DNA of 32,703 nucleotides, from positions 1 to 32,703 of IMG/VR virus record IMGVR_UViG_3300025276_000107, one strand, 5' to 3'. Shown here piece by piece: positions 7,070 through 32,703 of the stretch. A model generated the notes under the pieces. That model was given only the letters and a program-made list of their open reading frames with translations. It was not told the DNA's origin and ran no database searches. Source of the DNA: a virus. A program made the position numbers and the translations under genes. How positions within the stretch are numbered: the first letter of the stretch is position 1; each line of letters begins with the position of its first letter.

Positions 7070-7084
7070 GCTAGTACAAACTAG
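7060..7084. repeat. Tandem direct repeat at end of gp16-like gene
   Basis: The 11-mer GTACAAACTAG occurs at 7060-7070 and 7074-7084, 14 bases apart. The second copy contains the stop codon of the gp16-like gene. CTAGCTAG at the centre is palindromic. The arrangement looks like a small tandem duplication of the gene end together with part of the conserved late element. Confidence 0.7.
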
Positions 7085-10000
7085 TAACGACCAAAGGAAA
7101 TAGACCCTAAGTCATTATTACTATCAGTGCCTTCAAGCATATCTTGCATTTCATGAACTAAAGTTCTTATTCCAGTAAGCCCCATAAATGGAAGGTTCTT
7201 TATTATCTCACCAGTACCCTCACCTATTTTTCCATTAATTAAATCTTGAGCGCCTCTAGCAAAGTTAACGGCAATGCTTGGGCCAGCACCAGCAATACTA
7301 GTTACTGCATCAAGTCCGTCAGCCTCCTGAGGAAAACGAGGCTCTAACAATCCACCAGTTAAATTTGGGCCACCAAGAGCAAGGCTTGTAGCCATAGCTG
7401 TATAAAACATATCTGAGTACAAAGCCGCTACACCTGAGTAATCAAAAGATCTAGCCAACTGATCCTGATAGCTCATGTCTACCCAATCAGGCGTTTTAAT
7501 TTGAAGAACCATATACCCTAGACCTAAGGCCGCTGCTGTTCCAGTAAATCTACTTTTTAATTGGTTGTGTGCAAATGCTGCTGTTGTTTTATTTAATGCT
7601 GCAAAAGCATAGCTAAAAAATTGAAATGGTAAGCCAAGAAGTGCGCTCTCAATTCTAGCATATCCTTTAAACTGGCTGTCTTCCTTCATACCAAATTTTT
7701 TTGCAACACGCATAGGAATGTAAGCAATGCCAGCTTCGATAATAGGCTTGTCTGCTGGTGTACCCATAAGAATAGTATTCATAACACCACCACCAAGGGC
7801 AGATCTAAATGTTTTTACTGTTTCTGGGTCTACTCTTGCTTGCTTTTTAAACTCAACTACAGCTAAATCGTTTATAGCGTTTTCATAAGCAGCTTTGCCA
7901 GCTTTAGTTCTCTTGTCAAACCCTAAAGATTTAGCGCTATTAAGAGAGTGCATGATTTCGTGCATCTTAATAAAAGCTACATAATCTTCTGGTGAGGTTA
8001 TAATTCCCTTTTCAAGAGGCGTTACACCTTCAACTCTTGGGTTTTCCCAACCACGCAAAGGATACATTTCATCTATAATATGAGCTTCATCAATAAATAT
8101 CTTGTTGTCACTAGTCCTATAGAAAGCTGGTCTATATCTTTTTAATGCGTCAAAACTTTTAGTTGGCCCAGAAATTATATCAGCAGTAGTAGATGGAAAC
8201 TCTATGCTATTTGTCCAAGCATCTGTGTTTGCTATATACATACCAGACTCAGATTTTTGCCAAGGTGCATTTGCAATCCTTTTAGCATCTTCAAGATCTA
8301 TATTGTAACGAAGCAAATACTCTTGCTCCATTTTTGTTGCCTTGCCTTGTGTCCAGCGAACAGAATAATCGATAAGGCTATGAGAGCGCATCATGCCATC
8401 AAAATCTTTTAGTATTCTAGTAATAGGGCCAAGACCATTTAACATATAAAATGGTTGTTTTGCTTTATCTAAAAGATCAGACTTAAAAGGATTGTTATTT
8501 AAATCATCACTTATTCTTTGCATCCCCATATTCTTAATGTTTTCTAACGCCTCACCAGCAATCCTAATTTCTTTAGCGCCCATTTTTAACTGACTCTTTT
8601 TTAATATGCTAAACAAGCCTTTCATTGTGGGGCCAAGACCATGCTCCATAATAATCTTAGAAGGCTCTGCAAGTGCAGTCTGATATGCTCTACCAAGAAA
8701 GTTTAACTGAGCAAGGTCTCTAAGAATTTTAACAAATTGTGCATCAGCTCTATCAGGACTTCGCATTAACCCACCAGTAACGGCTTGATATAAATGCCGT
8801 ATGTTTTTCATAGCAGCGTGAGATTCTATAACTGTATTTCCAGAAGACATCATTTCAGAAAACGTATCATCCAAAATATCGTCTATTGAGTTTCCATTAA
8901 ACTGACGGGCAAATTCGTATCTAGGGCCAACCCTGCCGACATAAGCCTTCATAACAGCGATAGGGTTAGTAATCATAAAATCAAGAACTAATTCATTAGG
9001 AATATCTATTCCACGATGTTTAAAGTGTTTTGATTTACCAGCCCCGTAGTATGCAATCTCTGGGTCAGCAATGTCTTTGATGCCAAGAATTGTGTCTATG
9101 CTTTCGTTAGCTCTTTTTTTAATAGAAGCTTCGTCTGTTTGCAGTTGTACTCTTTTAGGTTTTTTGTCTCTGCTCATAGTAATAATACTTGGATTATCAG
9201 TGTACCACTTTACTAATATAGCTTCAAAAGCTTCTCTATTTTTATCAATAGCTTCTATATCCCAGTAACGTGGTCTAAATATTTTTTCGTTTGGAGGAAG
9301 AACTTCATCTGGGAAACCTTCTAAGTTTAACCTTGCTTCATCTAACTCTGCTTGAACCCTCATAACGTGAGACTTTAAACCGCTTATGGTATCAAACTTT
9401 TCATTAGCGTTCATTGACCTTTTTTCAAAGAACTCAATTTTTTTATTTGTACTAACAATGCGCTGCTCGCGATCTTTTACAAATTTAATATAATGTTGCT
9501 TAGATCCTATTAAGCCTTGTTCATTTAATCTTTTTTCCCAATTAGAATAAAATCTATCCATTACATTCATAACGCCAGATTCAAAATCATCTGAAGCTTT
9601 AATCCCAAGAATCATTTTTCTATCTACAGACTCAAACCAAGACTCAAAGTCTTTTCTATGAGCAGGGAGCATATAATCCATTCCTTCGGCTACACCCTTA
9701 CCTGTGCTTTCACCCCATATTTTTATTATTTCATCGTAGTGTCTAACCCACTCTCCTTCAAATAACTTTGCGTTTTGATAGGTAGAGTTTTCTACTTTTT
9801 GACCAGCTTTGTTTGCAGCTAACAATATTCCAGAATCGTTAGCTATCTTTAGTGCAGTTAGTTTTACAGAATTTGGTACAGTATCATTTGCAATAACATT
9901 TTTCATTGCTGTTGGTATAGATTTATAAAGAAATGAGTCAGTAAATATATTCTTTGCAATAGATCCATCAGGCTCAACAGCCTCAGGTGTTAAGGGAACT

Positions 10001-25334: not shown

Positions 25335-25712
25335 CTACCCTAGATCAATGCTCACTCGTATATCGCCAGCTACCTGTACCTGTGACCTATCTATCGGCTT
25401 GTACCCTGCGCGATCCAGTAGATCCTTGCTTGCTTCTAGCTGTACATACTCAGACTTCGCACCAACTGCTAACCTTCTGACAGTACCAGCGGCTAGTGTA
25501 GCACTCAATCCGAACTCCTCATTCATCCTCTGCATCATGTACTGCTGCACGTGTGCAAGCTTCAAGGCCTTGCTTGCAGTCACTCTTCCAGATTCGCCAG
25601 CAGCATACCCTGCCAGATCTGCGGCCTTACCTATCGTGCAACCATTTGCTACGAGGGTGTCTACTAACGCCGTCTGTTTTGTAGTTAGCTTTCTCTGCAT
25701 TGGAACATTCAT
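25335..25712 (-). CDS. terS: Terminase small subunit
   Basis: A 125-residue protein with an N-terminal helix-turn-helix typical of small terminases (KLTTKQTALVDTLVANGCTIGKAADLAGYA, residues 8-37, given for its pattern), then RVTASKALKLAHVQQYM, a central helical domain (LAAGTVRRLAVGAKSEYVQLEASKDLLDRAG) and a short beta end (VAGDIRVSIDLG). It recognises phage DNA and loads the large subunit. It is the first gene of the leftward unit; the ATG has a weak GGAAGG ribosome site. Codon and base composition are more G+C-rich than those of the virion genes. Confidence 0.85.
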   Translation of the reverse strand: MNVPMQRKLTTKQTALVDTLVANGCTIGKAADLAGYAAGESGRVTASKALKLAHVQQYMMQRMNEEFGLSATLAAGTVRRLAVGAKSEYVQLEASKDLLDRAGYKPIDRSQVQVAGDIRVSIDLG

Positions 25713-25766
25713 TTATTCATACCTTCCATATATCCTATTGCTTGCCCCCCTCACCCTCTCTCCCCC

Positions 25767-25797
25767 CAGATAGCACAATCTGATACTTGCTTGTCAA
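25767..25797 (-). promoter_or_regulatory. Candidate late promoter upstream of terS
   Basis: On the minus strand TTGACA (25797-25792, perfect -35) is followed after 19 bases by TATCTG (25772-25767), preceded by TGC as an extended -10. The spacing is two bases longer than ideal. It lies 55-85 bases upstream of the small terminase ATG and immediately next to a TGACG-N3-CGTCA dyad, which would suit regulation of the late unit. Confidence 0.4.
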
Positions 25798-25801
25798 TCC
25801 A

Positions 25802-25814
25802 TGACGTTGCGTCA
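25802..25814. promoter_or_regulatory. Operator-like dyad TGACG-TTG-CGTCA
   Basis: A perfect 5+5 inverted repeat around three bases. The same dyad with other spacers occurs at 30728-30740 and in degenerate form at 26911, 26933 and 26955. Here it lies four bases from the -35 box of the candidate leftward promoter. It is probably the binding site of a phage-encoded or host dimeric regulator. Confidence 0.6.
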
Positions 25815-25821
25815 CACTACT

Positions 25822-25848
25822 CAGAAAGGTATCATAGTACCTCTTCTG
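25822..25848. promoter_or_regulatory. Inverted repeat in divergent control region
   Basis: CAGAAAGGTA (25822-25831) faces TACCTCTTCTG (25838-25848) around TCATAG. The arms pair for ten bases with one extra C. They are followed by CAGACTA repeated at ten-base spacing (25857 and 25867) and a TTGACA at 25853. This could be an operator or an RNA hairpin. No confident rightward -10 box was found, although TATAAC occurs at 25862. Confidence 0.4.
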
Positions 25849-25922
25849 ACCATTGACAGACTATAACAGACTACACACAGATTGCTCCCAACTTCACCTT
25901 TACAAGTGTATCTCACTCAGCA

Positions 25923-26107
25923 CTAGGATTCCTTAATCAAGGTAACCACCATCCCGTCTTGTCTGCATATCACCCGCAGCCAACAGTTCGCAAGGCGGCC
26001 AAGAGGCCGTTCTTCCTTGCTAACTGCAAGCGCCCAGAGGGCATTGGCTGGAGTGCTATTGGCCTTCACCGAGAGGGCGGTTCCCTCGATTTGATAAGGA
26101 ATCCTAG
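25923..26107 (+). ncRNA. Predicted structured leader RNA of the early operon
   Basis: Bases 25923-25940 (CTAGGATTCCTTAATCAA) pair with 26091-26107 (TTGATAAGGAATCCTAG) as a 17-bp stem with a single bulged A. Inside are a weak CTGC/GCAG hairpin (25963-25979), a strong hairpin at 25984-26026 (CAGTTCGCAAGG with CCTTGCTAACTG, one mismatch, capped by CGGCC-AAGA-GGCCG with a TTCTT bulge), GCCC-AGA-GGGC at 26032-26042 and CGAGAGGG/CCCTCG at 26070-26088. The stretch is clearly richer in G+C than the genome. The AAGGA ribosome site of the first early gene (26096-26100) lies in the closing stem, and the stem ends two bases before the ATG. No known class was recognised. No open frame with a ribosome site uses this region. 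Confidence 0.6.
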
Positions 26108-26109
26108 AG

Positions 26110-26523
26110 ATGATTAAGATAAGCACACTTGCAAAGATGAAGTTGGAAGTAATCAACTATCATACTACAGACAGACCATCTATTGATGGCCCAGTAGTTA
26201 ACGCTGCTTTCCTCACCAAGTTAGGAACAGATGCTTGCTACACATCTAACAACGGCTTGACGTTCAAGAAGAAGCAGCTTGCTGATTCACTTGCAGAATA
26301 CGATCAAGCCTTTGAAGATAAGAACACATACGCTATTGAGCGCACTGAGAAGTGGATCAATACCCTTCAGCCAGAGCTTGCAGAACTTCAAGCTCGCCAC
26401 GATGCAGACTGTGAAGTCTACGCAGCACTTACTGGCGGTGAAGTTTGGCAGCCTAAGAAGAAGCCAGCAACTACAATCACCAAGGCAGCTAACTTCACTG
26501 AACTCAGAAAGCAGGTGGCGTAA
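26110..26523 (+). CDS. First early gene, hypothetical protein
   Basis: A 137-residue protein beginning MIKISTLAKMKLEVINYHTT. It has a short beta-type N-terminus, then KKKQLADSLAEYDQAFEDK and a helical stretch KWINTLQPELAELQARHDADC, with a basic C-terminal tail TELRKQVA. No family was recognised. It is the first gene of the rightward unit, directly behind the structured leader whose closing stem covers its ribosome site (AAGGA nine bases before ATG). A TTCG hairpin follows its stop, so it may be expressed as its own short transcript, as expected for an immediate-early host-takeover gene; that role is a guess. Confidence 0.8.
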   Translation: MIKISTLAKMKLEVINYHTTDRPSIDGPVVNAAFLTKLGTDACYTSNNGLTFKKKQLADSLAEYDQAFEDKNTYAIERTEKWINTLQPELAELQARHDADCEVYAALTGGEVWQPKKKPATTITKAANFTELRKQVA

Positions 26524-26532
26524 GTCACCTCA

Positions 26533-26556
26533 AAGAGAGAGCTTCGGCTCTCTCTT
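26533..26556 (+). terminator. TTCG-capped hairpin after first early gene
   Basis: AAGAGAGAGC, TTCG, GCTCTCTCTT forms a perfect ten-base stem with a UUCG loop ten bases after the stop of the first early gene. The bases that follow (CTACTTGTTAGTTT) are only moderately T-rich, so termination may be partial, or the hairpin may act as an attenuator or mRNA stabiliser. Confidence 0.6.
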
Positions 26557-26727: not shown

Positions 26728-26913
26728 ATGGAACCAGAAATAGAATACGATTCTCAAATGCTAATAGCTATGGCAGATAGAATCTTTAATGATCTGTCAT
26801 TCATGCTCATACCTTCTCAACGAAATGAAATGACTGTTGCTTTAACAGTTGCATACAAGCAGGGCAAAGCTGCTGGTTTACAAGAAGCAATCGAACTCAT
26901 TCGTGGAGCATGA
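26728..26913 (+). CDS. 61-residue hypothetical protein
   Basis: A small acidic helical protein: MEPEIEYDSQMLIAMADRIFND, then SQRNEMTVALTVAYKQGKAAGLQEAIELIRGA. An AAAAGGAAA ribosome site precedes the ATG. No known motif. Its stop codon TGA is the first three bases of the first of three operator-like sites (26911), so the gene ends exactly where the next control region begins. Confidence 0.7.
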   Translation: MEPEIEYDSQMLIAMADRIFNDLSFMLIPSQRNEMTVALTVAYKQGKAAGLQEAIELIRGA

Positions 26914-26967
26914 CGCAACGTAACTATTAAAGTGACGTAGGGTAACTTAATCCATAACGCTACGTCA
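26911..26967. promoter_or_regulatory. Three phased operator-like sites
   Basis: TGACGCAACGTAA (26911), TGACGTAGGGTAA (26933) and TAACGCTACGTCA (26955, inverse orientation) are 13-base variants of the TGACG-N3-CGTCA dyad. Their starts are exactly 22 bases apart, about two helical turns, so bound proteins would lie on one face of the DNA. The outer half-sites of the second and third also form a perfect nine-base inverted repeat (GTGACGTAG ... CTACGTCAC). They precede the gene at 27024 and the DUF932 operon. No clear sigma-70 promoter is visible between them and the gene. Confidence 0.6.
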
Positions 26968-26995
26968 CACCCATTGCATTCATACTTTAAATAAA

Positions 26996-32535: not shown

Positions 32536-32703
32536 ATGTACGACAAAGAAATAATAAAATGTATCAACGCAGCTAAGATGGGTCTTACTTTAAGAGAAGC
32601 ATCCACCTTACTTGAAATAGACTACCCATTAGTGCAAGAATTAAGCAGCAAATATAACATAGAATTTCCATGCCCAAGGAGGAAGGCAAATGAAAAAAGA
32701 AGA
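32536..32703 (+). CDS. N-terminal part of junction-spanning gene
   Basis: The ATG at 32536 follows AGAGG and opens 56 codons to the end of the window: MYDKEIIKCINAAK, then the same residues as the frame starting at base 4. On the circular molecule the frame continues to the stop at 681, giving about 239 residues. It lies 17 bases after the T run of the terminator. The RBS and in-frame codons show that the true start is here, not at base 4. Confidence 0.8.
   Translation, partial: MYDKEIIKCINAAKMGLTLREASTLLEIDYPLVQELSSKYNIEFPCPRRKANEKRR
32578..32703. repeat. Terminal redundancy, right copy
   Basis: Identical over 126 bases to 4-129. See the left copy for the single mismatch just outside it and for the reading as a circular or circularly permuted molecule. 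Confidence 0.9.

Follow-up and report, generated by a model that had tools for sequence, protein, structure and literature searches.

A foldback that mirrors the first early gene of a marine tailed phage appears to keep its pairing on the template strand

The locus and its neighbouring control sites

The window analysed here is the whole stretch of 32,703 nucleotides of IMG/VR record IMGVR_UViG_3300025276_000107. Both of its ends consist of an identical 126-nt stretch (4-129 = 32578-32703), and it is probably a complete phage genome, either terminally redundant or circular. The element under study is a foldback in a divergent gap. To its left, on the minus strand, lies the gene for the small terminase subunit (25335-25712; PHROG 2538, E 1.8e-12), which leads the leftward operon, and to its right, on the plus strand, lies the first early gene. 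Among the early genes are ones for a DUF932 protein, a RuvC-like resolvase, a YqaJ/RecE-type exonuclease, Erf and, judged by eye, an SSB-like protein. The early proteins that were read and searched, a subset of the open reading frames, included no recognisable polymerase, helicase or primase.

The first early gene (26110-26523, plus strand) encodes a protein of 137 aa, the g137 family, which matched no Pfam or PHROG family. The protein carries two conserved motifs, ARDACYTS and PELxELxxRHxAD, and is predicted to form a long two-helix hairpin; it gave no significant PDB match, the UvsY-like hits being weak (E about 0.4). Its position as first early gene suggests a role in host takeover or anti-defence. 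A terminator-like hairpin, AAGAGAGAGCTTCGGCTCTCTCTT (26533-26556), stands directly behind the gene, which may therefore be a unit of its own.

Several further sites flank the foldback. Adjoining the start side of the terminase gene is a G-rich tract (25745-25767, minus strand; a C-tract on the plus strand) that is conserved in more than 100 contigs. It reads GGGGGGAGAGAGGGTGAGGGGGG on the minus strand, and the form GGGGGGAGAGAGGGAGAGGGGGGC occurs exactly in at least 120 IMG/VR stretches. This polypurine tract is a possible packaging, R-loop or G-quadruplex site. Between the tract and the foldback, comparison of leaders across relatives delimited a conserved control stretch (25792-25876, plus strand) with the elements TGTCAA, a TGACGT-type palindrome, TTGACA (25853), CTATAAC (25861) and ACTACA (25870). 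This stretch is a probable divergent promoter region, and no convincing -10 element was found at normal spacing behind TTGACA 25853. Palindromes of the TGACGT type (GTGACG..CGTCAC) are common to two control regions, 25792-25876 and 26913-26985, perhaps operators for a phage regulator and a second early promoter. No cluster of DnaA boxes was found near the foldback, and outside it the only Rfam hit at E<=1 was SpF01 (7076-7159, minus strand), which scored below threshold.

Anatomy of the foldback

The first-pass annotation had described a leader RNA closed by a 17-bp stem with one bulged A. This stem is present exactly as described: CTAGGATTCCTTA(A)TCAA (25923-25940) pairs with TTGATAAGGAATCCTAG (26091-26107), the right strand holding the ribosome-binding site AAGGA and ending two bases (AG) short of the ATG at 26110. 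The largest enclosed hairpin (25984-26026) is likewise present, and the element is indeed rich in G+C (0.546 vs 0.41 for the window, a value reached by only 0.12% of 185-nt windows). Folding of 25915-26115 as RNA gave -81.3 kcal/mol (z -5.1), and 0/200 shuffles folded as well. An Rfam scan with 4227 families returned none at gathering score and none within the element at E<=1.

The stem is far beyond chance, yet it is merely the middle of a larger object. Self-comparison showed that the inverted repeat extends outward on both sides, pairing 25880-25956 with 26070-26154 and running past the ATG into codon 15. All parts are given here on the minus strand, whose fold is discussed below. The left arm (25880-25956, the 3' arm on that strand) repeats the right arm in inverted and degenerate form, with the ribosome-binding site, the ATG and the first 15 codons included; the arms match at 75% over 85 bp by self-BLAST (85 bp arms) and form helices in the minus-strand DNA fold. 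The right arm (26070-26154, the 5' arm) carries on its plus side AAGGA, the ATG at 26110 and codons 1-15. Between the arms lies the core or tip (25967-26059), in which a P5 stem (25967-25983 with 26044-26059) encloses two hairpins, P3 and P4, to make a three-way junction. P3 (25984-26026) was defined by motif scan, tip list and alignment and reads on the plus strand GTTCGCAA...TTGC(G/T)AAC nn CAAGC; in many relatives its tip on the minus strand is AAGGAGYAAAGCGAAGCGTACCTT. P4 (26031-26043), recognised in the alignment and the minus-strand DNA fold, adjoins the conserved CAAGC linker. Folded as minus-strand DNA, the whole element is a single clean rod (107 pairs) that ends in the three-way junction, and its minimum-energy structure coincides with the centroid.

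Arms that track the first early gene across relatives

Related loci in IMG/VR (L004-L098) were found through the first-gene protein together with the large terminase subunit TerL, and further loci through the P3 motif. The P3 hairpin (GTTCGCAA..TTGCGAAC nn CAAGC and variants) stands 75-108 nt upstream of the first early ATG in 35 loci. Paired arms are kept by nearly all phages with g137-type genes that were examined, and in nearly all of these loci the ribosome-binding site and ATG are paired to the left arm.

In relatives, arms can be as long as 350-490 nt; the left arm then repeats as much as the entire gene in an inverted, degenerate and non-coding form. Most or all of the gene is mirrored in five loci (L028, L035, L079, L088 and L098; 380-490 columns, 79-84% identity), whose copies have stops in all frames, and the arms of L062 span 337 columns. 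The frequency of mismatches is nearly independent of codon position. RNAalifold on an alignment of the core was uninformative, and since the helices outside P3 do not align, an arm-swap test and a mismatch test replaced a covariance model. In the arm-swap test, arms from the same phage paired mostly at -40 to -65 kcal/mol and arms from other phages at about -25. The arms are thus gene-specific and change together across relatives.

The core behaves differently from the arms. L013 and L152 have cores that are 98% identical and first genes and flanks that are unrelated; their left arms pair with their own gene at -26.5 and -29.2 and with the other's gene at -9.9 and -8.5. The core is a module exchanged between phages. 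Exchange of tip modules is also implied by L029 compared with L030 and L036, in which near-identical first genes are preceded by different tip types (P3 104-nt vs 42-nt). In four loci with other first genes (L150, L154, L173 and L177) the core is kept and the pairing ends before the ATG.

No homologues of the leader or the first gene were found among isolate phages; TerL alone led to two, Hodr and MEP301. Pelagibacter phage Hodr, the closest isolate by TerL (64%), has a giant hairpin at the same place with arms 95% matched, an unrelated first gene and a different tip. The Hodr record used (L140, OQ414635) is titled phage EXVC031P Hodr and bears locus tags EXVC032PBaldr, a possible naming mix-up. 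In MEP301 the layout around TerL differs. Among species genomes, the exact P3+CAAGC pattern was absent and the apical motif occurred solely in a Macrococcoides plasmid.

The strand on which pairing is kept

To compare the strands, the arms were aligned with a scoring symmetric for both, and expectations were derived from composition. An A.C mismatch on the plus strand is a G.U wobble on the minus strand, and a C.U mismatch is a G.A. In this set of loci, whose relatedness leaves the pooled counts and p-values only partly independent, 152 A.C mismatches were observed vs 106 expected, and 34 G.U pairs on the plus strand vs 81 expected, a 2.4-fold depletion. C.U likewise exceeded expectation (173 vs 100) and G.A fell below it (51 vs 82). 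Locus by locus, A.C outnumbered G.U in 20 of 25 chosen loci and tied in 5, and the reverse was seen in none. At third codon positions the ratio of A.C to G.U was 106:10. Within the coding arms, 92% of G and 81% of T are retained in the copy, whereas 17% of A have become G and 15% of C have become T, a table that matches the expectation for pairing kept on the minus strand with wobble allowed. The upstream part of the arms of g137 phages shows a weak excess of A.C (31:21), yet a C.U:G.A ratio of 90:10.

The bias extends to wholly intergenic repeats, in which no ribosome-binding site is buried: A.C to G.U was 75:28 against 1.3:1 expected (p=7e-4, subject to the same relatedness of loci), and the minus strand folds far better than the plus. 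With DNA parameters, the window's element folds at -78.2 (z -12.0) on the minus strand vs -63.8 (z -9.5) on the plus, and after correction by shuffles the minus strand is better in 23/26 loci (p=2.7e-5 over related loci). RNA folding also favours the minus strand, in 34/35 loci with composition contributing, and RNA-parameter MFE z-scores cannot settle the strand because composition favours minus.

Of three readings considered, the one that appears to fit these patterns best is that pairing is kept on the minus strand, which serves as template for the early operon. General strand-biased mutation was set aside, as the gene's third-codon composition hardly differs from that of other early genes. 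Selection against plus-strand pairing for the sake of translation would leave unexplained the same bias, and the large minus advantage, in wholly intergenic repeats. A directional copying error, in which the minus-strand right arm is the template for renewed synthesis of the left arm, would produce an identical signature and would itself need a foldback of the minus strand.

The tip motif on plasmids and likeness to known systems

The apical hairpin motif recurs between genes on several plasmids, with similarity over 25-30 nt (E 2e-4 to 0.4). These include Yersinia pWKY, a Pseudochrobactrum plasmid, where it adjoins mobC, and Lactococcus pQA518, where it adjoins a rep gene. Macrococcoides plasmids hold several copies inside larger branched hairpins. 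Three of them (L282, L283 and L289) carry similar 200-280-nt branched hairpins before successive operons in one orientation, and these hairpin families look like unannotated single-strand promoters or origins. On the F plasmid, a perfect 49-bp inverted repeat with GCAAGGGTACGCTTCGCC in its loop (about 56480-56720; L287 6480-6720) precedes the antirestriction gene and is distinct from the Frpo that lies in front of ssb. The motif is in another intergenic repeat of F and on other plasmids, and not in the ssb Frpo itself, whose strand bias is weak (A.C 8:5 and 9:4).

The leading regions of conjugative plasmids contain Frpo/ssi hairpins, single-stranded promoters that act on the template strand (PMC7736820, PMC11541004). 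The phage element shares with them a long hairpin that is imperfect, belongs to the template strand and stands upstream of the genes first expressed on entry (PMC7736820, PMC11541004), and a P3-like tip hairpin is found in such plasmids (F, Yersinia, Macrococcoides). In position and strand signature it thus agrees with the Frpo definition, whereas no convincing -35/-10 hexamer pair, such as Frpo carries (with UP elements) in its duplex stem, was found conserved across loci in the stem or leader of the phages. It also differs in belonging to a tailed double-stranded-DNA phage and in having arms that track, and may span, an entire gene; gene-length arms exceed any known Frpo. The ssoA (CS-6) of rolling-circle plasmids likewise places a hairpin tip on the strand that should become single-stranded (PMC10378824); the AAGCGT of many phage tips resembles CS-6 TAGCGA/T, and the related hairpin of Lactococcus pQA518 lies beside a rep gene. 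The phage tips read AAGCGT, GAGCGT or CAGCGT, however; TAGCGT itself was seen in the Yersinia plasmid variant alone, and no Rep protein or nick site was recognised in the phage.

Other likenesses concern RNA. In ColE1 RNA II, as on the phage minus strand, a folded stretch is followed by a G-rich tract, and the phage apparently lacks replication genes of its own; no promoter, RNA I-type antisense or RNase H site was identified in the phage. Lambda N-type early leaders have an RNase III stem that heads the early operon and buries the ribosome site. The phage stem stands at the same place and also buries such a site, with the difference that its pairing appears to be kept on the opposite strand and is gene-specific. 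Eukaryotic hairpin-RNA loci and hpRNA transgenes offer another parallel, an inverted gene copy in which changes spare RNA pairing and break the DNA palindrome (PMC9263138), whereas here the carrier is a bacterial virus without RNAi. A literature search on pelagiphage inverted repeats, RNase III early leaders and GCGAAGC with replication origins found nothing, and the literature searched held no description of a self-renewing, gene-tracking hairpin.

Proposed mechanism and alternatives

We tentatively favour, at somewhat short of even confidence, a strand-specific single-stranded-DNA hairpin of the Frpo/ssi kind at the head of the early operon. The minus strand, which is the template of the early genes, would fold into the long imperfect hairpin with its three-way-junction tip once it becomes single-stranded at this locus, for example when displaced in replication. 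The exchangeable tip and the short hairpins might then be read by host RNA polymerase, primase or the primosome, so that an RNA starts on the single strand. This RNA could prime the complementary strand, serve as early mRNA, or both, like the Frpo/ssi hairpins of conjugative leading regions. Complementarity of the stem to whichever gene follows would be maintained by selection, or foldback synthesis may renew the 3' (left) arm on the template of the right arm. That the folded molecule would be DNA is our best guess because of the folds with DNA parameters, the mini-hairpins described next, the failure to find a conserved leftward promoter, the plasmid motif and the Frpo/ssi precedent. Mini-hairpins of the form C-GNA-G (N = A, G or C) are unusually stable in DNA; the minus strands contain 27, vs 8.6 in shuffles (maximum 18), and the plus strands 2. 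The window's own P3 tip has a different loop without GNA.

The main rival is a hairpin RNA transcribed leftward from the minus strand, which we judge unlikely when its three versions are taken together. It could be the 5' leader of the late or terminase transcript, its self-folding masking an antisense stretch from annealing to the early mRNA; a structured primer RNA like that of ColE1, with an R-loop at the G-rich tract that precedes the terminase gene; or a separate antisense RNA that regulates the first early gene. Minus-strand pairing with G.U tolerated is a classic sign of RNA, and the G.U enrichment fits RNA at least as well as DNA; the better RNA folding of the minus strand (34/35 loci, composition contributing) and the conserved G-tract downstream on the same strand point the same way. 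Against this, no conserved sigma-70 promoter was found on the minus strand to the right of the right arm, arms of full gene length would need a promoter beyond the entire gene, and the mini-hairpins are of the DNA type. We know of no purpose for gene-length arms in bacteria, which also counts against a leftward RNA.

Distinctly less probable is an early-mRNA leader on the plus strand, of the kind proposed in the first-pass annotation, that sequesters the ribosome-binding site and ATG; it could be processed by RNase III or respond to a protein, and would be comparable to the lambda N leader. What stands of that proposal is that the early operon begins with a conserved structured element, previously undescribed, whose arms co-change in homologs; the burial of the ribosome-binding site and ATG in nearly all g137-type relatives and the plus-strand fold (z -5.1) agree with it. 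Action on the plus strand fares poorly: a working strand should gather wobbles rather than mismatches, and G.U on the transcribed plus strand is depleted 2.4-fold (A.C to G.U 106:10 at codon position 3). Burial of the ribosome site is no better as the purpose of the element, given that the minus bias holds in wholly intergenic repeats and that a ribosome-site switch has no need of whole-gene arms. The plus-strand leader is probably a by-product. Should plus-strand transcription begin to the left of the left arm, the ribosome site would stay buried, and an effect on translation is possible.

The arms may also have no function of their own: during replication the gene start would repeatedly be duplicated in inverted orientation, or copied by foldback, and the copy would then decay, with the core alone functional. 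We consider this quite unlikely, if a little less so than the plus-strand leader. A range of arm lengths from intergenic-only to whole gene, the 95% matched arms of Hodr, as if lately renewed, and the retention of the core where the arms end before the gene (L150, L154, L173 and L177) all suit it, and foldback copying with wobble misincorporation could also yield one-sided mismatches. Plain decay, by contrast, predicts equal numbers of A.C and G.U, third codon positions show no general strand-biased mutation, and paired arms persist in nearly all g137-type phages examined. Least probable, and very much so, is a palindrome acting in double-stranded form as a cruciform, packaging site or protein-binding site. 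The element does occupy a divergent control region next to the terminase gene, and its tip is palindromic, but a cruciform or protein site would be strand-symmetric, and all tests show strand asymmetry.

The single-stranded-DNA hairpin can be extended to a fuller account, in which the non-coding inverted copy is renewed from the first early gene, the template strand folds over part or all of that gene, and the exchangeable tip, which plasmids share, sets off RNA or DNA synthesis on that folded single strand. In its entirety this account is clearly less likely than not.

Significance

A non-coding arm that fits the neighbouring gene even where that gene differs is rarely met with, and the locus also cautions that what looks like a leader hairpin on the plus strand may act on the opposite one. 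If the proposed model is true, a widespread and mostly uncultured group of marine phages would carry a control element made of single-stranded DNA (or of antisense hairpin RNA), and tailed phages would be linked to the leading-region hairpins of conjugative plasmids. It would also hint at how phages without recognisable replication genes begin copying or early expression.
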